Below are positions 26,983 to 41,157 of a stretch of DNA of 64,000 nt, piece by piece. Under the pieces are notes generated by a model. The model was not told the DNA's origin. It made no database searches and saw only the letters and a program-made list of their open reading frames with translations. Each line of letters starts with the position of its first letter. The stretch's first letter is position 1. This DNA is from Betaproteobacteria bacterium CG2_30_68_42 (GTDB lineage Bacteria > Pseudomonadota > Gammaproteobacteria > Burkholderiales > Rhodocyclaceae). Made by a program: the position numbers and the translations under genes. The stretch is from the NCBI GenBank assembly GCA_001872285.1, contig MNXU01000064.1, positions 1 through 64,000 of the forward strand, in the 5' to 3' direction.

Positions 26983-28620
26983 TCAGATCCGTTCCCAGTT
27001 GAACTGTGCCTTCGTGCCCTTGCCGTACATCTTGAGCGCGCCCTTTTCTCCCACCGCGTTGGGGCGGTTGAAGATCCAGTTCTGCCACGCGCTGAGCCGC
27101 CCGAATACCTTGGTGTCCATCGTCTCGGCGCCGGGGAAACGCAGGGACGCCTCCAGGCCCGTCAGCGCGTCCGGCGAGAGGCTGGCGCGCTCCTCGATCG
27201 CGAGCCGGATCTCGTCGTCCCAGTCCAGCGCGTCGGGTGCGAAGGTCACCAGGCCGGCTTCGAGCGCCTGCCCGGCCGAGAGGCGTTCGCCGGCACGTTC
27301 CCGCGCGGCGGCCACCGCGGCCGCGTCATGGCTGAAGCGGGTCGCCAGCCGCGTGCAGCCGTTGTTCATCGCGAGCGGCCCGAGGTTCATGCCCGAGAGC
27401 ACGATGTGGGGGGCCGCCTCGTCTCCCGCCAGCAGCATGAAGGAACGGTCGGCCGCGAGCGCCGGCTCCAGCAGCGTTCCCGCGAAACACGAGCCGCGGT
27501 CGATGATCGCGAACAGACTGCGCGAGGAAACGTCGAGCCGGCGGAAGGTGCGCCGCAGCAGGTTGGTCGCCTCGCGCACGAACCAGTCGCTCCGGTGCGC
27601 GAGCATCGCCGCATCGAGCGCCAGCGCCGCATCGACGTCTCCCTCCGTGCGCAACAGCCAGGTGCCGGCCTCGAGCTCGTTGATGCGCGCCATCAGGATG
27701 GCATCGTCGAGTTCGCGCGCCATCGCGAGCGGCCACCACGCCGCACCGCGGGTCCGGATGCCATCGACATCGGTCGCCTCGCCCGCGTCCGGTCCGCGGA
27801 GCGTGAAGGTCGCCGTGCGCGCCGCGCGATCGAACGCCACATCCACCCAGCGGTAATGGTAGCCGCGCTCGTCGATTGCGCGCGCGAGCGGTGCCAGCGT
27901 GATGGCGGCCGCCGTCTGCGGGCGATCGGTGCGGGCCGCGAGATCGCGGGCGCGCTCGATGACTTTCCGTGCGAACTCCTTGGGCGGCGCGCTCCCGTCG
28001 ATGAGCCGCCACTGCACGGCGCGCTTCGCGCGCACGCCCTCGGCGGTGGTGCAGAACAGGTCGGCGATGTCGTGACGCACCCTGCGCTTGTCGACGAGCC
28101 GCGTGAGCCCGCCGGTGCCGGGCAGCACGCCGAGCAACGGCACCTCCGGCAGGCTCACGGTGGAGGAACGGTCATCCACCATGAGAATCTCGTCGCAGGC
28201 CAGCGCCACCTCGTAGCCTCCGCCTGCCGTGGTGCCGTTCAGGGCGGCGAGGAACTTGAGACCGGAGTTCGCGCTCGACTCCTCGATGCCGTTTCGCGTC
28301 TCGTTCGTGAACTTGCAGAAATTCACTTTCCAGGCGTGCGTGGACTGGCCGAGCATGTAGATGTTTGCGCCGGCGCAGAACATCCGCTCCTTGCCGCTCG
28401 TGAGCACGACGCAGCCCACTTCGGGATGCTCGAAGCGGATGCGCTGGAGTGCGTCGTTCAGCTCGATATCCACGCCCAGATCGTAGGAGTTGAGTTTGAG
28501 CTTGTAGCCGGGGAGCACGCCCGCCTGCTCATCGACGTCGAGGGTGAGGGTCGCCACCCTGCCATCGAATGCGAGCCGCCAGTGCCTGTAGCGGTCGGGA
28601 TGGGTATCGAAGGTGATCAT
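26983..28620 (-). CDS. boxC: 2,3-epoxybenzoyl-CoA dihydrolase (BoxC)
   Basis: Ring-opening hydrolase (545 residues) of the enoyl-CoA hydratase superfamily. It converts 2,3-epoxybenzoyl-CoA to 3,4-dehydroadipyl-CoA semialdehyde and formate. It contains two crotonase-like halves; the first has the oxyanion-hole segments CVVLTSGKERMFCAGANIYML and ALNGTTAGGGYEVALACDEI. Start MITFDTHPDRYRHWRL at 28620 is preceded by GGAG; a longer in-frame start at 28650 is less likely. It is transcribed with boxB, downstream of boxR. Confidence 0.93.
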   Translation of the reverse strand: MITFDTHPDRYRHWRLAFDGRVATLTLDVDEQAGVLPGYKLKLNSYDLGVDIELNDALQRIRFEHPEVGCVVLTSGKERMFCAGANIYMLGQSTHAWKVNFCKFTNETRNGIEESSANSGLKFLAALNGTTAGGGYEVALACDEILMVDDRSSTVSLPEVPLLGVLPGTGGLTRLVDKRRVRHDIADLFCTTAEGVRAKRAVQWRLIDGSAPPKEFARKVIERARDLAARTDRPQTAAAITLAPLARAIDERGYHYRWVDVAFDRAARTATFTLRGPDAGEATDVDGIRTRGAAWWPLAMARELDDAILMARINELEAGTWLLRTEGDVDAALALDAAMLAHRSDWFVREATNLLRRTFRRLDVSSRSLFAIIDRGSCFAGTLLEPALAADRSFMLLAGDEAAPHIVLSGMNLGPLAMNNGCTRLATRFSHDAAAVAAARERAGERLSAGQALEAGLVTFAPDALDWDDEIRLAIEERASLSPDALTGLEASLRFPGAETMDTKVFGRLSAWQNWIFNRPNAVGEKGALKMYGKGTKAQFNWERI

Positions 28621-28650
28621 TCGCGGCTCCGGTTTCGGGGAGTGTCCCAA

Positions 28651-28709
28651 CGGTTCAAGGTTAAAGAATTATAATTCACTATCAGCGGTGACGCAAGCAC
28701 TATGATGCA
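28651..28709. promoter_or_regulatory. boxR-boxC gap with AT-rich operator-like motifs
   Basis: This short gap is distinctly AT-rich (aagaattataattcacta at 28664-28681) and includes GCACTATGATGCACT (28697-28711), a pair of TGC/GCA half-sites around an ATA core. A related TGCAATATAATGGCA lies in front of boxR. BoxR/BzdR regulators are known to recognise TGCA-containing repeats, so both are candidate BoxR sites controlling boxCB and boxR. Confidence 0.35.
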
Positions 28710-29606
28710 CTAGGCGCCCAGCGCCTGGCACAGCTCGTCGAAGCTCTGCTCGACCGAGCTGCCTGAAGTCTCCAGGATCACATCGGCCTTGCTGTAGAGC
28801 GCTTCCCGTCCTGCCAGGATGCGCCGCAGGTCTTCCATCGCCTCGCCGTCGCCCGCCATCGGACGGTAGTCGCCCTGCGCGATGACGCGCGCCATGTGTT
28901 CCTCGGGCGTGGCCCTGAGCCACACGGTGAAGCACGAGGTGAGCAGGAGATCGAAGGTTGCCGGCTCGCTGACGATGCTGCCCCCCGGCGCGAGCACGAA
29001 CGCATCGTGCTGTTCGAGCACCGCCTCCAGGGCGCGCCGTTCGTAGCGCCGGTACGCCGCCTGACCGTAGAGCGAGAAGATTTCGGAGAGCACGGTCCCG
29101 GCTTCGCGCTCGATCGCGCGCGCGGCTTCCACGAAGACGACACCGCGGCGGGCGGCGAGCATCTGACCGAGCGTGCTCTTGCCTGCACCGCGCAGCCCCA
29201 CGAGCGCGATGCGACGGCTGCGGTCGCGGTTGCCGGCGGCCTCGAACTCGGCGGCGAGCAGCGCGCGGGCGCGGGCGAGCTTCGCCGGCGACAGGCGTGC
29301 CAGAAACTGGATGAGCAGGGTCAGTTCGACCGGCTGCTCGGGCCCTTCACGAGACAGATCGACGAGTGGCAGCCCCATCGCCTGCGCGATCCTCCGCAGC
29401 AGGACGATCGAGATGTTGCCGTGACCCGTCTCGAGCTGCGCGAGGTAGCGTTCCGAGACGCCCGACTGCTGGGCCAGGATCTTGCGCGTCATGCCGCGCC
29501 GCGCCCGCAGCCCGCGGATCCGCTCGCCGAGCATCCCCAGGTACTCGTTGTCGTCGGCGCTCAGGTCCGGACGCCGCAAGCGCCGGAGACTCTCGGTCCT
29601 GGCCAT
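28710..29606 (-). CDS. boxR: BoxR/BzdR-type transcriptional regulator (HTH plus shikimate-kinase-like domain)
   Basis: A 298-residue two-domain repressor. The N-terminal helix-turn-helix is of the XRE type (LGERIRGLRARRGMTRKILAQQSGVSERYLAQLETG in essence, about residues 24-60). After a linker the C-terminal part resembles shikimate kinase, with a Walker A GLRGAGKSTLG. In the Azoarcus proteins BzdR and BoxR this second domain senses benzoyl-CoA and releases DNA. The ATG at 29606 gives the usual length. It is divergent from the flavodoxin-benzoate-CoA ligase operon and likely controls both directions. Confidence 0.92.
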   Translation of the reverse strand: MARTESLRRLRRPDLSADDNEYLGMLGERIRGLRARRGMTRKILAQQSGVSERYLAQLETGHGNISIVLLRRIAQAMGLPLVDLSREGPEQPVELTLLIQFLARLSPAKLARARALLAAEFEAAGNRDRSRRIALVGLRGAGKSTLGQMLAARRGVVFVEAARAIEREAGTVLSEIFSLYGQAAYRRYERRALEAVLEQHDAFVLAPGGSIVSEPATFDLLLTSCFTVWLRATPEEHMARVIAQGDYRPMAGDGEAMEDLRRILAGREALYSKADVILETSGSSVEQSFDELCQALGA

Positions 29607-29658
29607 GTTTCGAGCGGCTCCGCGCGCCGCGTGGTAGGAAATTGGTGAAATATACTGC

Positions 29659-29686
29659 TTGAATCTGACTCTGCTTGCAATATAAT
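29659..29686 (+). promoter_or_regulatory. Promoter of the flavodoxin-DUF4863-bclA operon
   Basis: TTGAAT (29659-29664) and a perfect TATAAT (29681-29686) are 16 bp apart, about 45 bp before the flavodoxin ATG. The -10 lies inside TGCAATATAATGGCA, a candidate BoxR-binding motif, so repressor binding would occlude the promoter. Confidence 0.55.
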
Positions 29687-29731
29687 GGCACTCGCCGTAT
29701 CTTTCAAGCGTCAAACACCCGCCCGACGCCT

Positions 29732-30217
29732 ATGCGACTGATGATTCTGGTCGGAACGATGACCGGCACGGCCGAACTGGTCGCCGAAGAATTGCAGAAT
29801 GCCCTCGAAGCGCAGGGCCACGAAATCGAGGTTCGGCTGATGGACGGCCTGGATGCGGGCGTGTTCGCGCGCCGGGACACATGCCTCGTCGTGATCTCGA
29901 CCTACGGCCAGGGGGACGTTCCCGACAACACGCGTGCCCTGGTCGAGTCCTTGCAGCGCGACCGGCCCGATCTGTCCCGCTTGCGCTACGGAGTCATCGC
30001 GCTCGGCGATCGCACCTACAGCGCCACCTACTGCCGGGGCGGCAGGCAGTTCGACGAGGCGCTCGGCGCGCTCGGGGCACGGCGGGTGGGCGAGATGCTG
30101 CTTCACGATGCCTCCGCCGGCACTCTGCCCGAAGAGGTCGCCGTCGAATGGATTCCCGGCTGGATGAGCGCCCTGGAGGGCGAGCTCGCGGGCGAAGCGG
30201 TCGGAGGAAACGCATGA
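29732..30217 (+). CDS. Flavodoxin (MioC-like)
   Basis: A 161-residue FMN-binding electron carrier. The phosphate loop is VGTMTGTAELVAEEL, and flavin-contact regions are STYGQGDVPDNTRAL and ALGDRTYSATYCRGGRQFDEAL. It is nearer to MioC and the flavodoxin domain of sulfite reductase than to long-chain flavodoxins. It heads an operon with a DUF4863 gene and benzoate-CoA ligase and is divergent from boxR. A role in passing electrons to BoxB is conceivable, since boxA is absent here, but unproven. Confidence 0.85.
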   Translation: MRLMILVGTMTGTAELVAEELQNALEAQGHEIEVRLMDGLDAGVFARRDTCLVVISTYGQGDVPDNTRALVESLQRDRPDLSRLRYGVIALGDRTYSATYCRGGRQFDEALGALGARRVGEMLLHDASAGTLPEEVAVEWIPGWMSALEGELAGEAVGGNA

Positions 30218-30684
30218 ACCCAGTGGATGAGTTTGAACAAATGCTCGCCGGGCTCACCGGCGCGATCGCGGGGCTGCCGCTGGATGCGGCTCTGGAAGCG
30301 AAGCTGAACCGCGAGTTTCCGGCCGGCGGCGCGTTCTTCGCGCGAATACGAAAGGCTTGCGAGGACGGCGTCTCCGCGGGATGGATGTGCGCCCAGGGCG
30401 AGGGTCGCAGGCGTTTCGGCCGCATCATCGCTCCCGGGCCGGCGACGTCCGGCTTCAGCGTGGATGTGGTTGACATCGAAGAGCTCGTCGGACCCCACCA
30501 CCGCCACCCGACCGGCGAGATCGACATGATCATGCCGGTAGCGGGCGATGCCCGCTTCGACGGGCGCGCCGAGGGCTGGCTGGTCTACGGCCCGGACACG
30601 GCTCACCGTCCGACGGTGAGCGGCGGGCGGGCGCGGATTCTTTACCTACTTCCCGGTGGTGAAATCGAGTTCACCGGAAGCTAG
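30214..30684 (+). CDS. DUF4863 (PnbB-like) family protein
   Basis: A 156-residue cupin-like protein of the DUF4863 family, which is also associated with 4-hydroxylaminobenzoate lyase (PnbB) of nitrobenzoate pathways. Recognisable parts are EDGVSAGWMCAQGEGRRRFGRI, a putative metal-site HHRHPTGEIDMIMP and GWLVYGPDTAHRPTVSGGRA with a second His. CGGAGG precedes the ATG, which overlaps the flavodoxin stop by four bases. Proteins of this family commonly occur beside benzoate-CoA ligase genes. The activity here is not established. Confidence 0.72.
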   Translation: MNPVDEFEQMLAGLTGAIAGLPLDAALEAKLNREFPAGGAFFARIRKACEDGVSAGWMCAQGEGRRRFGRIIAPGPATSGFSVDVVDIEELVGPHHRHPTGEIDMIMPVAGDARFDGRAEGWLVYGPDTAHRPTVSGGRARILYLLPGGEIEFTGS

Positions 30685-30742
30685 ACCACGGGGCGGGCTC
30701 GGCGACCGTCACCTTTCGAAGCACTCAAGCGAGGAGGAACCC

Positions 30743-32353
30743 ATGTCCATTTCCCTTTCCAGTGCCGATCACTCGGTCGCGCCGCCCCGCATCACGATTC
30801 CGCGCGAGTACAACGCGGCCCACGACCTGATCGAGCGCAACCTCGCCGCGGGTCGCGGCGCGAAGGTCGCGATCCGTGATGACGCCGGCGAATACACCTA
30901 CGCGGAAGTCGGCGCGCGGGTGAATCGCTTCGCCAACGCGCTCGCCGGCCTGGGCATGAAGATGGAATCGCGGGCGTTCGTCGCGCTGTACGACACCATC
31001 GATTTCCCGACCGTCTTTCTCGGCTGCATCAAGGCCGGGGTGGTGCCGATCGCGGCCAACACGCTGCTGACCACCGAGGACTACCGCTTCATGCTGGAAG
31101 ACTCGCGCGCCGAGTTGCTGGTGGTCTCCGAGGCGCTCCTGCCGGCGTTCGCCCCGCTGATCGGGAAGCTGCGCTTCCTGCGCCAGGTCGTGGTCTCGGG
31201 CACCATTGGTGCCGGTCATCCCCGCCTGTCTGAACTCATGGCCGGGGCCTCCGATCGGTTCGAGCCCGCGCCCACGACCAGCGACGACCTGTGCTTCTGG
31301 CTCTACTCGTCGGGGTCTACCGGCTCGCCGAAGGGCACGGTGCACCTTCACCAGGATCTGATCCTCACCGCGGAACTCTACGCGCGGCCGGTGCTGGGGA
31401 TCGCCGAGGGCGATGTCGTATTCTCGGCCGCCAAACTGTTCTTCGCCTACGGACTGGGCAACGGGCTCACCTTTCCGTTCTCGGTGGGGGCCACGGCGGT
31501 ATTGATGGCCGAGCGCCCGACGCCGGCGTCGGTGTTCCGGATCCTGAGGAAGCACCGCCCCTCCATCTTCTATGGCGTGCCGACGCTCTACGCGGCGCTG
31601 CTCGCCAGCCCGGAACTGCCCGCGCGCGAGGAGCTGCGCCTGCGCCGCTGCACTTCGGCCGGCGAAGCGCTTCCGTCGGAGATCGGCAAGCGCTGGAAGG
31701 AGCACTTCGGGGTCGACATCCTGGACGGGATCGGTTCGACCGAAATGCTCCACATCTTCCTGTCCAACCGTCCCGAGGACGTGCGCTACGGCACCACGGG
31801 CAAGCCGGTGCCGGGCTACGAGCTGCGGCTCGTCAATGACGATGGCAATCCGGTCGCGCGCGGCGAGATCGGCGAACTCCAGATCAGCGGGCCGACCGCG
31901 GCGGTCATGTACTGGAACAACCGCGCCAAGAGCCTCGCGACCTTCCGCGGACCGTGGACCCGCAGCGGCGACAAGTACGTCGAGGACGCCGACGGCTATT
32001 TCGTGTATTGCGGGCGCTCCGACGACATGCTCAAGGTCTCCGGGATCTATGTCTCGCCGTTCGAGGTCGAGGCGGCGCTGATGACGAACCCGGCGGTGCT
32101 GGAGGTCGCGGTCGTCGGGCAGGAAGACGAGGCGGGGCTCGTCAAGCCCAAGGCTTACGTTGTGCTCAAGCAGGGCCAGAGCCCCTCGGATTCGCTCGCT
32201 GCCGAACTGAAACAACATGTCAAGGATCGATTGGCGCCGTACAAGTATCCGCGCTGGATCGATTTCGTTCCGGAACTTCCGAAGACCGCGACCGGTAAGA
32301 TCCAGCGCTTCAAGCTGCGCGGGGCGAAGGGCGGGCCTTCGTTCGGGTCCTGA
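30743..32353 (+). CDS. bclA: Benzoate-CoA ligase
   Basis: Acyl-CoA synthetase of the ANL superfamily (536 residues) that activates benzoate with ATP and CoA. Core motifs are [16 protein letters not shown] near residue 188 (P-loop), [15 protein letters not shown] (aryl-pocket and A5 region), [28 protein letters not shown] and the catalytic Lys in [14 protein letters not shown]. The start is fixed by GAGGAGG ten bases upstream. The [14 protein letters not shown] segment is typical of benzoate- and aminobenzoate-CoA ligases rather than phenylacetate-CoA ligases. It delivers benzoyl-CoA to the box pathway. Confidence 0.92.
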
Positions 32354-32386
32354 GCCGCCCGGGCGCTCGCGGCGCGAAGAATCCGC

Positions 32387-32415
32387 TTGCAAGCGGCGCG
32401 CACTTCCCCTACAGT
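32387..32415 (+). promoter_or_regulatory. Promoter of the cold-shock gene
   Basis: TTGCAA (32387-32392) and TACAGT (32410-32415) with a 17-bp spacer. Transcription from here would leave a 5' untranslated leader of about 125 bases before the Csp start, as is usual for cspA-type genes. Confidence 0.5.
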
Positions 32416-32547
32416 GCGCGCGCGGAGAAATCAAGTGGTCGGCTTGTCGGCAGCATCCCATTGCGGTTCGTCGGTGCCCCTGTCTTGAGTCTCGTCCGCC
32501 GCGGGCTTCCGCCCGCACTTCCATCACTACGTCAAGGAAATCGCGAT

Positions 32548-32751
32548 ATGGCAACCGGCACAGTCAAGTGGTTCAACGAATCGAAGGGCTATGGCTTCAT
32601 CACGCCCGATCAGGGCGGGGAGGATCTGTTCGCGCATTTTTCCGCGATCCAGGGCTCCGGCTTCAAGACTCTCCAGCAGAGCCAGAAGGTGTCCTACGAC
32701 GTGACCACCGGTCCCAAGGGCAAGCAGGCCACCAACATCCGGCCCGAGTAG
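32548..32751 (+). CDS. Cold-shock protein (CspA family)
   Basis: A 67-residue single cold-shock domain with both RNA-binding motifs: [15 protein letters not shown] (RNP1) and DLFAHFSAI (RNP2, usually VFVHF). It binds single-stranded nucleic acid and acts as RNA chaperone. The start [10 protein letters not shown] is preceded by AAGGAAA. It is followed at once by a strong terminator and is thus a single-gene unit. Confidence 0.95.
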
Positions 32752-32780
32752 CCCGCTCGGCCGCAGGACAGGCCGATGAT

Positions 32781-32810
32781 CGAAAAAGCCCGGCTCGCCG
32801 GGCTTTTTCG
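32781..32810 (+). terminator. Rho-independent terminator after the cold-shock gene
   Basis: CGAAAAAGCCCGG and CCGGGCTTTTTCG form a near-perfect 13-bp inverted repeat around CTCG, with a run of five T on the 3' arm. It works in either direction, but only the cold-shock gene runs into it. Confidence 0.88.
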
Positions 32811-32873
32811 CCTGGCGCGACCGGCAAGGCAACGGGAGCGGTGTAACCGAAGTCACCGGAACCCTCGCGTGAC

Positions 32874-32900
32874 TTAGCACTCATAAGCGGCGAGTGCTAA
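32874..32900. promoter_or_regulatory. Perfect CIRCE (HrcA) operator upstream of rpoH
   Basis: TTAGCACTC (32874-32882), nine bases, then GAGTGCTAA (32892-32900) is the exact CIRCE consensus, the binding site of the heat-shock repressor HrcA. A TAAAAT -10 candidate (32898-32903) overlaps the right arm. The site lies 25 bp before the rpoH ATG, so HrcA should repress rpoH directly. Confidence 0.93.
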
Positions 32901-32925
32901 AATACATCGACAAGGGGGTTCGTCC

Positions 32926-33771
32926 ATGACGCAAGCGTTGAGCTTTCCGGTGCCCCGTACCCTCGGGAGCCTGGATGCCTACATTCAGAGCGTAAACCGG
33001 TTTCCGATCCTCAGCGAAGAGCAGGAGTTCGAGCTGGCGCGGCGGCTGCGCCGCGATGACGACGTCGAGGCGGCGCGCGCGCTGGTGCTCTCGCACCTGC
33101 GGCTGGTCGTCTCGGTCGCGCGCAATTACCTCGGCTACGGCCTGCCTCATGCCGACCTGATCCAGGAGGGCAACGTCGGGCTCATGAAGGCGGTCAGGCG
33201 CTTCGATCCCGAGCGCGGGGTACGGCTGGTTTCCTTTGCCATCCACTGGATCAAGGCCGAGATCCACGAGTACATCCTGCGCAACTGGAGGCTGGTCAAG
33301 GTCGCGACGACCAAGGCGCAGCGCAAGCTCTTCTTCAATCTGCGCAGCCTCAGGCGGGATCTGCGCACGCTTGGAGCCGAGGAGAGCGTCTCGATCGCGC
33401 GCCGGCTCGGCGTGAAGGTCGAGGATGTCGCTGAAATGGAAGTCCGGATGTCGGGTCAGGACGTCTCGCTGGAAAACGGGCCCGAGGATGCGGAGGAGCG
33501 TGTCGCGCCGATCGCCTACCTGGCCGACCCGGCTGCCGGTCCCGCGGAGGTGCTGGCGGAGCACCAGAGCCAGACTCTCCAGGCGGAAGGCCTGAAGCGG
33601 GCGATCGAGGGGCTCGATTCGCGCAGCCGCGCGATCATCGAGCGGCGCTGGCTCGGAGAGGCCGCGACCCTGCACGAGCTGGCGGCGGAATACGGGGTCT
33701 CGGCCGAGCGCATCCGGCAGATCGAATCGAAGGCGATGCAGAAGATCCGCGGCGAGCTGACCGCGGCCTGA
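32926..33771 (+). CDS. rpoH: RNA polymerase heat-shock sigma factor RpoH (sigma-32)
   Basis: Sigma factor of 281 residues. Region 2 includes LVLSHLRLVVSVARNYLGYGLPHADLIQEGNVGLMKAVRRFDPERGVRLVSFAIHWIKAEI in essence, with the RpoH-type QRKLFFNLRS just after it (the RpoH box). Region 4 ends AAEYGVSAERIRQIESKAMQKIR. The start is the ATG at 32926, 25 bases after a perfect CIRCE operator, which puts rpoH under HrcA. It converges on the ModE-like regulator gene. Confidence 0.95.
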   Translation: MTQALSFPVPRTLGSLDAYIQSVNRFPILSEEQEFELARRLRRDDDVEAARALVLSHLRLVVSVARNYLGYGLPHADLIQEGNVGLMKAVRRFDPERGVRLVSFAIHWIKAEIHEYILRNWRLVKVATTKAQRKLFFNLRSLRRDLRTLGAEESVSIARRLGVKVEDVAEMEVRMSGQDVSLENGPEDAEERVAPIAYLADPAAGPAEVLAEHQSQTLQAEGLKRAIEGLDSRSRAIIERRWLGEAATLHELAAEYGVSAERIRQIESKAMQKIRGELTAA

Positions 33772-33790
33772 ATCGCGCACGTCCCTCGGC

Positions 33791-34879
33791 TCAACGGGGG
33801 ACGCCCAGCGCCTCCCGCACCGTTGCCATCCTCGGGCGCCGCCTGAGAACGTAGCCGGGCAGTCCGGCGGCGATGCGCCGCGCCGCGGCGCTCCCCGCCA
33901 GCCTGAGCAGTTCGCGGCCGGCGGGGCCGTCAAAGGCGCTCGCGTGTCCGGCCAGGAAGTAGCGCTCCTCCACGATCGGCACGAAGCCCAGACCGAGCGG
34001 GGCGGTCGCCGCCCGGATGCCGAAGCCGGCGGCGGCCAGCCCACTCGCCACGGTCGCAGCGACCGCGTCGTGGGTGAATTCCTCGTGCGCGTAGCCGGCG
34101 ACCGATTCCGGCGCTACGCCGGCGGCCTGCAGGAGGCTGTCGAGCAGGATCCGGGTTCCGGAGCCCTCCTGGCGGTTGACGAACACGATCCCCGGGCGCG
34201 CGAGATCGCCGATCGCGCGGATACGTTCGGGATTGCCGCGCGCGACGATGAGGCCCTGGCTGCGCGTCATCAGCTCGACGAGGCGATACGAGGCGGGACG
34301 AAGGAGGCGCCGGAACCTGAGACGGGCATCGGAGCCGAGTTCAGAACTCGCGACGTGGAAACCGGCCAGGTCGCATTCCCCGCGCGCCAGTGCGGCAAGC
34401 GCGTCGAGGCTGCCGCAGAAACGCAGTTCGATGGACACCCCTCCGGTTTCGTTGGCGAGATCGCGCAGTCGCGCGATCAGGCAGTCGTGGCTCGCGGCGA
34501 TGCCCATCGAAGGGCGCGCCTCGGGTGTGAGCGCGCGCAGGGCTTCCGTGGCCGTCGCGGAGGCTGCTGCCAGCCGCGCGTCCAGCAATGCCGCGGCCGC
34601 CTCGCGCGCGCGCAGCAGCCCCTCGCCGAGCGCGGTGAGCTGCGCGCCGCGGCCCTTTTCCAGTTTGGCGAGCGGTGCGCCGAAGAGCTCGGTGTACTCG
34701 CGCATCCGACCCCACAGATGGCGGTAGCTCAGTCCCATCGCGCGCGCCGCCTGCTGCAGCGAACCGGCGTCCCGGATCGCCTCCAGCGCGAGAAAGACCC
34801 CGGCATCGCAGTGCGCGCCGGCGGAGTTGGCGATCGCCCAGTCGCAGGAGAGCCGGACACGAATCGGCAATCTATGCAT
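33791..34879 (-). CDS. ModE-like regulator with substrate-binding domain, divergent from the Mo/W transporter
   Basis: A protein of 362 residues. The N-terminal 100 or so form a ModE-type LysR-like helix-turn-helix (LEAIRDAGSLQQAARAMGLSYRHLWGRMREYTELF). The remaining 250 form a PBP-like domain (COG1910) with FVNRQEGSGTRILLDSLLQ and YAHEEFTHDAVAATVASGLAAAGFGI, as in molybdate/tungstate-binding proteins. It probably senses molybdate or tungstate and controls the tupBCA operon across the 91-bp divergent gap. A short inverted repeat ATGT-CGGT-ACAT (34878-34889) overlaps its own start. Confidence 0.85.
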   Translation of the reverse strand: MHRLPIRVRLSCDWAIANSAGAHCDAGVFLALEAIRDAGSLQQAARAMGLSYRHLWGRMREYTELFGAPLAKLEKGRGAQLTALGEGLLRAREAAAALLDARLAAASATATEALRALTPEARPSMGIAASHDCLIARLRDLANETGGVSIELRFCGSLDALAALARGECDLAGFHVASSELGSDARLRFRRLLRPASYRLVELMTRSQGLIVARGNPERIRAIGDLARPGIVFVNRQEGSGTRILLDSLLQAAGVAPESVAGYAHEEFTHDAVAATVASGLAAAGFGIRAATAPLGLGFVPIVEERYFLAGHASAFDGPAGRELLRLAGSAAARRIAAGLPGYVLRRRPRMATVREALGVPR

Positions 34880-34970
34880 GTCGGTACATATTTGATGGAT
34901 AGAGATGTTCGCGTATCTTAGCAGCCCGAAGGGCGCCGGCGCAGGGCCGCGGCGCCCGCGCGAAGCCGAC

Positions 34971-35675
34971 ATGAGCGAACTGCTGTACTCCTTCACCGAT
35001 GCCGTCCGGCTGATCGCCGCCCTGGACCCGGAACTGGCGGGGATCATCCTGCTCAGCCTGCGGGTGAGCATGACCGCGGTGCTGGTGTCGGCCGCGATCG
35101 GCCTGCCGCTCGGCGCGGCACTCGCGATCGGGCGCTTTCCGGGGCGCCAGGTGATCGTGGTCGTGCTCAACGCGTTCATGGGCCTGCCGCCGGTGGTGGT
35201 CGGGCTGGTAGTCTATCTGCTGCTGTCGCGTGCCGGTCCGCTCGGGGAACTGGGCATCCTGTTCACCCCGGCCGCGATGATCGTCGCGCAGACCCTCCTG
35301 ATCACTCCCATCGTCGCCGCGCTCGCGCGCCAGGTGGTGGAAGATGCCTGGCGTGAATACGAGGAGCAGTTGCGCTCGCTCGGGGCGCGCTGGCACGACG
35401 CCGTCGCGACGCTGCTGTGGGATACCCGCTACTCCCTGATGACCGTGCTGCTCGCCGGCTTCGGGCGGGCTGCAGCCGAGGTCGGCGCGGTGATGATCGT
35501 CGGGGGCAACATCGCCGGGGTCACCCGGGTGATGACGACCGCGATCGCGCTCGAGACGACCAAGGGCGATCTGCCGCTCGCGCTCGCCCTCGGGATGGTG
35601 CTGATCGCCCTGGTGCTGGCCATCAACGTGGCCGCCTACAGTATCCGGCAGTTCAGCGTGCACCGCTATGGCTGA
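34971..35675 (+). CDS. tupB: Tungstate/molybdate ABC transporter permease TupB
   Basis: Permease of 234 residues with five or six helices. The EAA-type loop is EEQLRSLGARWHDAVATLLW, and GRAAAEVGAVMIVGGNIAGVTRVMTTAIALET is the diagnostic TupB/WtpB end region. The ATG at 34971 (MSELLYSFTDAVRLI) matches the usual family start; a longer frame from 34905 exists. It overlaps the ATPase gene by eight bases. Confidence 0.87.
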   Translation: MSELLYSFTDAVRLIAALDPELAGIILLSLRVSMTAVLVSAAIGLPLGAALAIGRFPGRQVIVVVLNAFMGLPPVVVGLVVYLLLSRAGPLGELGILFTPAAMIVAQTLLITPIVAALARQVVEDAWREYEEQLRSLGARWHDAVATLLWDTRYSLMTVLLAGFGRAAAEVGAVMIVGGNIAGVTRVMTTAIALETTKGDLPLALALGMVLIALVLAINVAAYSIRQFSVHRYG

Positions 35676-36405
35676 TGTCGTCGCGCAGCGCCGGACGCTG
35701 TTGCCGCTGGTCCTCGATCGGGTCGGCTTCGACGCGGGCGGCCGCGCCATCCTCGCAGGCATCGACGCGCGCATCGAGGCCGCGGTGCGCACCGTGATCC
35801 TGGGACCGAACGGCTCGGGCAAGAGCCTGCTGATGCGCATCTGCCACGGGCTGCTCGCACCCACGCGCGGGGCGGTGCGCTGGAGCGGGCCGGACGCCCG
35901 CCGGCCCGGTGTGCAGGCGATGGTGTTCCAGCGCCCGGTGCTGCTGCGCCGCTCGGCGCTCGCCAACGTGAGCTACGCGCTCAAGCTCGCGGGGATCGGA
36001 CGCGCGGCGCGGGAAACGCGTGCGCGCGCCGTGCTCGACCGCGTCGGGCTCGCCGCAGTGGCCGCCCGAACCGCGCGCGTGCTCTCCGGGGGCGAGCAGC
36101 AGCGGCTCGCGCTGGCGCGCGCCTGGGCGCTGGAGCCGCAGGTGCTGTTTCTCGACGAGCCCACCGCGAGCCTCGATCCGAGCGCGGCGCGCGAGGTGGA
36201 GGCGATCATTCAGGCGATTCACTGCGCCGGCACAAAGATCGTCATGACCACGCACAACCTCGGTCTGGCGAAGCGCTTCGCCGACGAAATCCTGTTTCTG
36301 ATCGACGGGCGCATCGAGGAGGCCGCGCCGGCCGACCGTTTCTTTCGTCAACCGCGCTCGGCGAAAGCCGGCGCCTTCCTTCAGGAGGAACTTCCATGGA
36401 GTTGA
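35668..36405 (+). CDS. tupC: Tungstate/molybdate ABC transporter ATPase TupC
   Basis: ATPase of 245 residues: Walker A GPNGSGKSLLM, Q-loop MVFQRPVLLRR, signature LSGGEQQRLALARAW, Walker B VLFLDEPTASLDP and switch His in MTTHNLGLAKRF. Sequence ends overlap both neighbours, so it is co-translated with TupB and TupA. The domain lacks the C-terminal TOBE extension found in ModC, which favours the Tup type. Confidence 0.87.
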   Translation: MADVVAQRRTLLPLVLDRVGFDAGGRAILAGIDARIEAAVRTVILGPNGSGKSLLMRICHGLLAPTRGAVRWSGPDARRPGVQAMVFQRPVLLRRSALANVSYALKLAGIGRAARETRARAVLDRVGLAAVAARTARVLSGGEQQRLALARAWALEPQVLFLDEPTASLDPSAAREVEAIIQAIHCAGTKIVMTTHNLGLAKRFADEILFLIDGRIEEAAPADRFFRQPRSAKAGAFLQEELPWS

Positions 36406-37241
36406 ATCGCAGCGCCCTGCGGGGCATGGTCGCCGCCGCAGGCATCCTCGGCGCACTGCCCGCGCTCGGGCAATCGACGTTCATCACGGTGGCCTCTACG
36501 ACCTCGACCGAGCAGTCCGGGCTGTTCGGCCATCTCCTGCCGCGGTTCGAGAAGGCCTCGGGCATCCAGGTGCGGGTGGTGGCGCTCGGCACCGGCCAGG
36601 CACTCGACCTGGGCCGGCGCGGAGATGCCGACGTCGTGTTCGTCCACGACCAGGCGGCCGAGGAGAAGTTCGTCGCGCAGGGCTACGGGATCGGCCGCCG
36701 CCAGGTGATGTACAACGACTTCGTGCTGATCGGCCCCAGGGGCGATCCGGCGAAGGTCGGCGGCGGGAAGGACGTGCTCCAGGCATTGCGAAAACTCGCC
36801 GCGGCGCAGGCGCCGTTCGTCTCGCGCGGAGACAAGAGCGGGACCCACGCCGCGGAGCTGCGCTACTGGAGGGCCGCCGGGGTCGATCTCGACCAGGCGA
36901 AGGGGCCGTGGTACCGGGAGACCGGCTCCGGAATGGGACCGGCGCTCAACACCGCCGCCTCGATGAACGCCTATCTCGTCGCCGACCGCGGCACCTGGCT
37001 GTCGTTCAAGAACCCGCGCGAACTGGCGGTCCTGGTCGAGGGCGATACGCGGCTCTTCAACCAGTACGGCGTCATGCTGGTGAATCCCGCCCGGCATCCG
37101 CACGTGAAGGCGGAGGCCGGCCGGCGCTTCATCGACTGGCTCGTCTCGAACGAAGGGCAGGCGGCGATCGCGGACTACAGGATCGGCGGCCGGCAACTGT
37201 TCTTCCCCAACGCCGCCGCCAGCTCGCCTGCGGCGCGCTGA
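36396..37241 (+). CDS. tupA: Tungstate/molybdate-binding protein TupA
   Basis: Periplasmic binding protein of 281 residues. Signal peptide of about 25 residues ([20 protein letters not shown]). The anion-binding motif of TupA follows at once as [13 protein letters not shown] (TTTSTxxSG type). [21 protein letters not shown] and [15 protein letters not shown] are further family marks. Likely ligand is tungstate, possibly molybdate. The cluster lies about 12 kb from the molybdoenzyme gene padB. Confidence 0.9.
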
Positions 37242-37280: not shown

Positions 37281-39338
<2,058 letters not shown>

Positions 39339-39411: not shown

Positions 39412-41157
39412 TCATGCTTCCCTGCTCGCCGCCAGCTCCTGCTTGCGGGCCAGCAACTCGGCGAGCCGGCTGCGCTCCTCGCCGTTCAAGCCCCCGGTGC
39501 GCCCCTTCGCGCTCAGCGCGGCGATGTCCCGGCTCAGGCACTGGCGGCGAAGCTGATCGATGGCGTCCCCGAACACGGTCTCCAGCGAACCTTCATCGAT
39601 CGGTTCGGTGGCGCTACTGCGACAGGCCGCGTCCAGGACGGCCTCGTGAGGGGTGTCGCGAAAACGCTCGACCACCGTGTCCAGCCTGCCGGCCGGCAGT
39701 TCGCCGCGATCGAACGCCGAGGCGATGGCACGCAGCAGCGCCGCCTCGGGTTCATCCGCCGACAGCAGCTCGACCGGGATCCCGGCCGACCATTCAGGCT
39801 TCTGGAGGATGATCCGCAGCAGTCGGCGGGACAGGCTGGCGCGCTGGCGCGCCGCAGGGGCCGGCCGTGCCGCGCGTGCGAGCGCCTTGAGCCCGAACAG
39901 GTCGCTCACTTCCGCCGGCGCGAGCCCGGCCAGCTCCGAGAGCGAGCGCACGAGCTGCGAACGCAGCATGGGCGCCCGGATGCGCAGCACCAGCGGCTTG
40001 GCTTCCGCGAGCAGCCGCGAACGACCTTCCGCGGCTGCGAGATCGTTGCGGCCCCGCAATTCGCGCAGCAGCAGTCCGGTGAGCGCAGTCGGGGCGGCGG
40101 CGAGGCTGCGGAAGGCCTCCGCGCCGAGCGCCCGTACGAAGCTGTCGGGATCGTGCTCGGGCGGCAGGAACACGAAGCCCGCCGCGGAATCGTCGGTCAG
40201 CTCTTCCAGACTGGCTTCGAGCGCGCGCCAGGCCGCACGCCGCCCGGCTTCGTCGCCGTCGAAGCAGAACACGATCCGGTGCGCCTGCCGGAAAAGCTTC
40301 TGGACGTGCTCTCCGGTGGTCGCGGTCCCGAGCGTCGCGACCACATTGGCCACCCCATGCTGGGCGAGCGCCACCACGTCCATGTAGCCCTCGACGACGA
40401 TGACCGAATCGGCCTGCCGGATCGCCGCGCGCGCCTGGGGCAATCCGTACAGCTCGCGTCGCTTCTCGAACAGCGGCGTTTCCGGGGAGTTCATGTACTT
40501 CGGTTCGCCCTCGTCGATGACGCGCCCCCCGAAGGCGATCGGATTGCTGCGCGCATCGAGGATGGGGAACATCACCCGGTCGCGAAACCGGTCGTAGAGC
40601 CTTCCTTCCGCAGATTCGATCACGAGGCCGCAGCGGCGCAGCATCCCCGCATCTTCGCCGGAGAAGATCGCGTCCAGGTTGTGCCAGCCCGGCGGGGCAT
40701 AGCCGATGCCGAAGCGCGCCGCGATCTCTCCGCTCAACCCGCGCCCCTTGAGATAGCCGATCGCGCGCTCGCTGTCCTTGAGCGCTTTGCGGTAATACTC
40801 GGCGGCACGGCGCATGGTGTCGAGCAGGCCTGCGCTGTCGGCGCCGTCCGTGCGTGCGGGCGAGGATTCGACCGGGACGCTCATGCCGGCGCGTCCGGCC
40901 AGTTCGCGCACTGCATCGACGAAGCTCAGCCCGGCATGCTCCATGAGGAAGCTGATGGCGCTGCCGTGCGCGCCGCACCCGAAGCAATGGTAAAACTGTT
41001 TGGACGCGCTGACGGTGAAGGACGGGGTCTTCTCCGCATGGAAGGGGCAGCAGGCGACGTGGTTCGCCCCCGCGCGCTTGAGCGGCACGTAGTGCCCGAC
41101 GACATCGACGATGTCGACCCGGGCGAGCAGATCCTGGATGAACGACTGCGGTATCAC
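39412..41157 (-). CDS. dnaG: DNA primase DnaG
   Basis: Primase of 581 residues that makes replication primers. The N-terminal CHC2 zinc site uses C37 and H40 ([12 protein letters not shown]) and C58 and C61 (HCFGCGAHG). The Toprim core shows [19 protein letters not shown] with the catalytic Glu and [15 protein letters not shown] with the Asp pair. The C-terminal DnaB-binding helical domain is present. It lies in the order rpsU, yqeY, dnaG, rpoD, the enlarged macromolecular synthesis operon. Confidence 0.96.

Follow-up and report, generated by a model that had tools for sequence, protein, structure and literature searches.

In E. coli, mRNA folding, protein stability and chaperone binding are the main factors that set the level of sigma-32. 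The activity of the repressor HrcA depends on GroEL. To our knowledge, E. coli has no HrcA, and the hrcA profile search of the control genomes gave no E. coli match. For the beta-proteobacteria, a CIRCE (HrcA operator) before rpoH was reportedly described in 2003 by Permina and Gelfand in a study of the beta-, gamma- and epsilon-proteobacteria.

In Geobacter sulfurreducens, a CIRCE was predicted before rpoH at position −51 from the start codon (PMC545781, Table 8). According to the available part of this source, it is the same perfect TTAGCACTC-N9-GAGTGCTAA as in the locus described here, and groESL carries a CIRCE as well. A difference is that a CIRCE is also located at hrcA-grpE-dnaK-dnaJ in G. 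sulfurreducens, whereas the genome analyzed here has sites at groES and rpoH only. An overlapping sigma-E promoter is not mentioned in that part of the account (PMC545781).

In Bordetella, SigE transcribes the rpoH gene (fam) in vitro (PMC3490749), and according to a review a heat-inducible rpoH promoter of B. pseudomallei is under the control of rpoE (PMC5994319), both as given in the accessible portions of these sources. E. coli rpoHP3 and Bordetella fam have a sigma-E promoter before rpoH with the same geometry as the candidate found in this study. HrcA and CIRCE are absent from the main text of the paper on Bordetella, as far as accessible to a word search (PMC3490749), whereas the Bordetella genome of our collection (L040) carries a CIRCE directly after the sigma-E −10. 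No statement on an overlap of CIRCE and a sigma-E promoter at rpoH was found in the literature searched, the coverage of which was partial with most subscription journals outside. A CIRCE before rpoH is already known; the joint layout of sigma-E promoter and CIRCE may be undescribed.

The window, which is the whole 64-kb stretch of DNA analyzed here, belongs to a genome of 3.1 Mb in 95 contigs with a completeness of 99.97%. On its plus strand, TTAGCACTCATAAGCGGCGAGTGCTAA was found at positions 32874–32900, a 9-9-9 inverted repeat that matches 18 of 18 CIRCE arm bases. The start codon of rpoH (32926–33771, plus strand) follows after a gap of 25 bases. The gene encodes the heat-shock sigma factor sigma-32 with 281 amino acids and reached 397.5 bits against TIGR02392 (cut-off 323.1). 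It was the sole match to this model in the genome at E ≤ 1e-60, and the next best sigma factor was 34% identical to RpoH. A Shine-Dalgarno-like AAGGGGG (32912–32918, plus strand), identified by eye, is located 7 bases before the start codon. The original prediction of a perfect CIRCE directly in front of rpoH was hereby confirmed.

No other CIRCE with up to 3 mismatches was found in the window, and 100 dinucleotide-preserving shuffles of the window contained none. At the same threshold the whole genome holds two sites, one at rpoH and one at groES (contig C9, one mismatch), while the reversed pattern used as a control gave 0 matches. A chance palindrome is ruled out by the shuffles, the reversed-pattern control and the conservation of the site before rpoH in relatives described below.

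Upstream of the operator, the gene of a small cold-shock-domain protein was identified at 32548–32751 on the plus strand (PF00313, 4.8e-29 on 32551–32748; start codon determined by eye). Between this gene and rpoH, a hairpin with a 13-bp stem and a T-rich 3′ arm is located at 32781–32810 on the plus strand (−22.2 kcal/mol, z −3.3), 63 bases before the operator; it was not among the outputs of the pattern scan. The hairpin is likely a terminator, which would make rpoH a separate transcription unit. The cold-shock gene ends within 130 bases of the operator, so that the operator might be thought to serve this or another gene. This is extremely improbable and was rejected for the cold-shock gene, since it lies upstream on the same strand, reads toward the operator and then runs into the putative terminator, and since the operator stays with rpoH in the relatives.

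The main sigma factor gene rpoD (37281–39338, minus strand) is located about 3.5 kb from rpoH on the opposite strand and faces it. A permease, an ATPase and a binding protein are encoded at 34905–37241 on the plus strand and resemble a tungstate/molybdate transporter as judged by eye, without a family search; a ModE-like regulator gene was seen, also by eye, on the other strand within 33791–35179. In the region 26983–32353, an AMP-binding acid-CoA ligase is accompanied by an enoyl-CoA-hydratase-like gene and by a regulator that has a kinase-like domain, a gene set which by eye resembles an aerobic benzoyl-CoA (box) cluster.

The scan of 32400–33100 for promoters revealed one sigma-70-like promoter (mean of 0.1 in shuffles). 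It is located at 32874–32903 and reads TTAGCA-18-TAAAAT, with TG ahead of the −10. The −10 hexamer TAAAAT (32898–32903, plus strand) has its first three bases inside the right arm of CIRCE and its last three beyond it. Together with the TG at 32895–32896, it forms an extended −10 (TGn directly before a good −10) at rpoH, and half of this element, TGCTAAAAT, is supplied by the right arm. The weak −35-like TTAGCA (32874–32879, plus strand; 4 of 6 bases), 18 bases before the −10, lies wholly within the left arm. The earlier claim that the operator overlaps a −10 candidate was borne out, and the sigma-70-like promoter spans the whole operator. As far as the sequence can tell, the operator is itself the rpoH promoter rather than an element adjoining one.

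In addition, a candidate sigma-E promoter was found on the plus strand. Its −35, GGAACCC (5 of 7 bases of GGAACTT), is located at 32858–32864 in the register most common among the relatives (−16), and its −10, TCATA (TCNNA), follows after 16 bases at 32881–32885, where the first two bases form the end of the CIRCE left arm. With 2 mismatches in 10 positions, GGAACCC-N16-TCATA is weaker than the sites of most sampled relatives. An equal or better match in the commonest register was found in a fraction of 0.0036 of the single-base shuffles of the window's own flank, in which the arms were kept.

Transcription from the sigma-70 promoter is predicted to start a few bases 3′ of TGCTAANAT, resulting in a leader of only about 16 bases. 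The fold of 32904–33140 did not differ from shuffles (z 0.03), so that nothing hinted at an exceptionally stable 5′ structure, and in 32000–34500 all Rfam families stayed below their gathering scores. An RNA thermometer at rpoH was dropped on these grounds, although such a structure may still exist. Since no unusual 5′ structure was seen, setting the level of RpoH by transcription is the simpler option here, although sigma-32 may also be controlled through its activity or stability. The scan for sigma-32 boxes in 31000–34000 on both strands with up to 3 mismatches revealed only one site with 3 mismatches at 32386. Autoregulation of rpoH by sigma-32 was dropped because this sole box is far from the operator.

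For the analysis of conservation, 80 named relatives were collected by their RpoH match, and a separate sample of 60 genomes of the same order was drawn, 57 of which contain rpoH. From this order set, 57 rpoH genes in 56 genomes were analyzed for their upstream DNA, and the window's own was left out. The two sets share no 40-mer with each other; within the order set none is shared, and in the named set five pairs share one, i.e., a few of its entries are close relatives. In 76 of the 80 named relatives, the 300 bases preceding the matched rpoH start contain a CIRCE with up to 3 mismatches. The exceptions are two Nitrosospira (L047, L071), Snodgrassella (L083) and one locus with only 63 upstream bases (L048); hrcA was not found in the genomes of Snodgrassella and L048. 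In the order set, 49 of 57 sites had at most 2 mismatches, three had 4–5 and five had 6–8. One single-base shuffle per upstream region gave 6–9 mismatches and was never better than 6. The proposed comparison of rpoH upstream regions in relatives therefore supports the operator (76/80 and 49/57). The rarity that the original prediction had implied could not be upheld, as the arrangement is common in the sampled relatives and published for G. sulfurreducens (PMC545781, as far as its available part goes).

Some variants of the site were observed. One genome (G047) has two rpoH genes on different contigs (L162, L166), each with its own CIRCE (1 and 2 mismatches). In two genomes of one family in the same class (the pair L228/L229), the rpoH operator is TTAGCAGTC-N9-GACTGCTAA (G152), with both arms changed and the palindrome kept, or TTAGCAGTC-N9-GATTGCTAA (G089); the specificity of HrcA may have shifted in this family. 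Outside the class, G195 (L230) has hrcA and carries a CIRCE-like TTAGCAGTC-N9-GAGTGCTAA, which precedes the match to the rpoH model by about 85 bases; no sigma-E site was found at this rpoH by the rule GGAACTT-N15..17-TCNNA. Contig C11 of G158, from the same phylum, contains two CIRCE-like sites near 40677 and 40738, 61 bases apart.

The search for hrcA elsewhere in the genome of the window, on which the control of rpoH by HrcA had been made to depend, was positive. The gene is split across the ends of contigs C46 and C34. Its N-terminal part reached 235.5 bits against TIGR00331 (cut-off 197.2), the C-terminal part is found on the other contig end, and some 20 central positions of the model are covered by neither piece. 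The two pieces fit one, possibly intact, gene cut by an assembly gap. On C46, nadK is located on the strand opposite hrcA; on C34, hrcA is followed by hemH, other genes and then grpE-dnaK (dnaJ by eye).

Across the order sample, hrcA was detected in 53 of 60 genomes. Among the 57 genomes with rpoH, 48 have both hrcA and the rpoH CIRCE, 2 have hrcA only, 1 has CIRCE only and 6 have neither (Fisher test 5e-6, ignoring relatedness). The operator thus occurs in 48 of 50 hrcA-bearing genomes vs. 1 of 7 genomes without detected hrcA. Both genomes with hrcA only (G009, G026) have a site with 4 mismatches, and the one with CIRCE only (G052) is 84% complete. The six genomes with neither span six families, in one of which (f4) a second genome (G003) has both. 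In 32 genomes of the same class outside the order, hrcA was found in 6, and the rpoH CIRCE in 5 of these 6 vs. 0 of the 26 without hrcA (Fisher test 3e-5, likewise ignoring relatedness); the exception, G170, has hrcA and no CIRCE at rpoH at the threshold. This count comprises only the 32 same-class genomes with all matches listed, and beyond those only G195 is named; the scan scored 20 letters including two AT, so that sites with more than 3 mismatches over 20 would escape it. Both Nitrosospira genomes have hrcA and lack the rpoH CIRCE. The presence of hrcA without rpoH CIRCE in Nitrosospira, G009, G026 and G170 indicates that the link is dispensable. A published list gives two Neisseria species without HrcA, and Laribacter and Chromobacterium with one (PMC3135505, in the part available). 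As read from the genomes, CIRCE is conserved at rpoH and apparently lost with hrcA, save for the two Nitrosospira, G009, G026, G170 and G052.

Next to the operators of rpoH, those of groES were analyzed as a control. The groESL CIRCE of the same order is the same operator and by inference binds the same repressor, but it differs in its surroundings. The groES control comprised 18 loci (17 of the 30 loci of one set, the other 13 of which were rpoH, plus L002). An AT one base past the right arm was found in 42 of 49 order-set rpoH operators and in 70 of 77 of the named set plus window, vs. 2 of 18 groES operators (Fisher test 2.5e-8 for the order set vs. groES). This AT completes TGCTAA-N-AT, an extended −10. 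Furthermore, GGAAC-like letters occur at a fixed distance upstream of the rpoH operators. A sigma-E site, defined as GGAACTT, 15–17 bases and TCNNA with at most 2 mismatches in 10 positions, was identified at 38 of 49 order-set and 56 of 75 named rpoH operators and at 0 of 18 groES operators, whereas single-base shuffles with the arms kept gave a rate of 4–6.5%. The groES operators instead follow a sigma-32 promoter (CTTGAAA...CCC-TAT).

Eight of the 57 order-set genes were excluded from both counts because of more than 3 mismatches. From the named set, L047, L048, L071 and L083 were excluded, having no CIRCE or too little upstream DNA; L063, with 34 bases upstream of the operator, was kept in the AT count and left out of the sigma-E count, which resulted in 75 named loci plus the window. 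Of seven more operators, from G195, G140 and five genomes of the same class, 4 have the AT and 5 have a sigma-E site. The sigma-E rule was checked on E. coli rpoH: the scan recovered the site TGAACTT-N16-TCTGA, which we take to be the sigma-E promoter P3. The RpoH search of plasmid records, with best matches below 60% identity, was used only to reach this E. coli gene. The record NZ_CP134663.1 is a 4.9-Mb E. coli sequence labelled as a plasmid, and rpoH matches in very large plasmid records may be chromosomal.

A clear sigma-E site is present at 56 named loci; its −10 overlaps the operator in 37 of them and is located just before it in 19. The overlapping register, to which the window belongs, is found for example in Aromatoleum, Thauera (L011) and Nitrosomonas (L056); A. 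tolulyticum (L009) and A. toluclasticum (L014) combine a CIRCE with 0 mismatches and a sigma-E site with 1 mismatch whose −10 overlaps the operator. Examples of the other register are Bordetella (L040), Paraburkholderia (L053), Cupriavidus (L044) and Advenella (L073). With the −10 just before the operator, the operator would cover the start site.

No sigma-E site was found by the rule in 19 of 75 named loci, including Herbaspirillum (L078, L081) and Polynucleobacter (L082, L069). It was likewise absent from 11 of the 49 order-set operators, and in the window the site is degenerate (GGAACCC, TCATA) next to a strong extended −10. It is thus possible, if somewhat doubtful, that HrcA acts only on the sigma-70 promoter at rpoH, which would be a plain HrcA-repressed housekeeping promoter with the sigma-E match of the window as a relic or a chance finding. 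However, this match lies in the commonest register and has the geometry of the E. coli site, it is equalled by 0.36% of the shuffles, and rpoE is present in the genome (331 bits, cut-off 236).

The loci in which the palindrome is lost allow the promoter and operator letters to be considered separately. In G034, where hrcA was not found, GGAACTT-N16-TCATA and TGATAAAAT are kept before rpoH while the palindrome has 5 mismatches. A perfect sigma-E site is also kept in G026 (hrcA present, 4 mismatches) and in both Nitrosospira, one of which (L071) has also retained the greater part of a left arm. The other five genomes without hrcA (G019, G040, G041, G044, G053) lack a sigma-E site at up to 2 mismatches; an extended −10-like match was found in G053 and G040. 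By these cases, promoter letters can outlive operator letters. This would be expected if HrcA is the reason for the conservation of the palindrome itself.

The palindrome could instead be kept for its promoter bases, with HrcA repression of rpoH weak or irrelevant. The doubling of the right arm as extended −10 fits this idea, as do the promoter parts retained without palindrome in G034 and Nitrosospira, but promoter needs account for only part of the 18 arm bases. Moreover, the GAG that opens the right arm and the GCAC in the left arm are nearly invariant although they are not promoter letters (in windows preselected at up to 3 mismatches), and the palindrome is mostly missing where hrcA was not found. 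This explanation is therefore considered unlikely.

In the genome of the window, a sigma-32 box with 2 mismatches of 13 precedes groES, with CIRCE directly behind it, and a box with 1 mismatch precedes grpE. A sigma-32 site with 2 mismatches is located before dnaK; several background matches with 3 mismatches were found around dnaK, and only the boxes of groES and grpE were used as evidence.

The anatomy of the site, its conservation, its co-occurrence with hrcA and these boxes point to one reading. The segment 32874–32900 is very probably both a working HrcA operator and the rpoH core promoter, and we infer that HrcA and GroEL gate its transcription by sigma-70 as well as sigma-E. HrcA with GroEL would most likely gate the basal and the envelope-stress transcription of rpoH. 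The sigma-70 extended −10 would be built to one half from the right arm of the operator, and the sigma-E promoter, which is degenerate in the window but clear in most of the relatives sampled, would place its −10 in the left arm. Free GroEL would keep HrcA active, and HrcA bound to the operator would exclude RNA polymerase, whether it carries sigma-70 or sigma-E. Once GroEL is taken up by misfolded proteins, HrcA would lose its activity and both rpoH and groESL would be released. Sigma-32 would then drive groESL and grpE-dnaK, and the new GroEL would restore HrcA and close the loop. The original prediction that HrcA controls rpoH accordingly stands as the best reading of the conservation and of the tracking with hrcA; it does not stand as an unusual case, and it had missed the sigma-E promoter.

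For the HrcA-bearing beta-proteobacteria, and for those few gamma-proteobacteria of the sample that also carry hrcA, we lean slightly towards a general layout in which the sigma-E promoter, the HrcA operator and the extended −10 share about 45–60 bases in two registers and the operator gates both promoters. In such a layout, rpoH would reach full expression only with GroEL occupied, envelope stress would further raise the rate, and the sigma-E promoter could outlive a lost palindrome, as in G034 and Nitrosospira.

Should HrcA gate rpoH in the majority of these bacteria, the availability of GroEL may set the supply of sigma-32. The two heat-shock circuits would then be arranged in series and not in parallel, and the joint layout of sigma-E promoter and CIRCE would be a simple meeting place for cytoplasmic and envelope stress signals.
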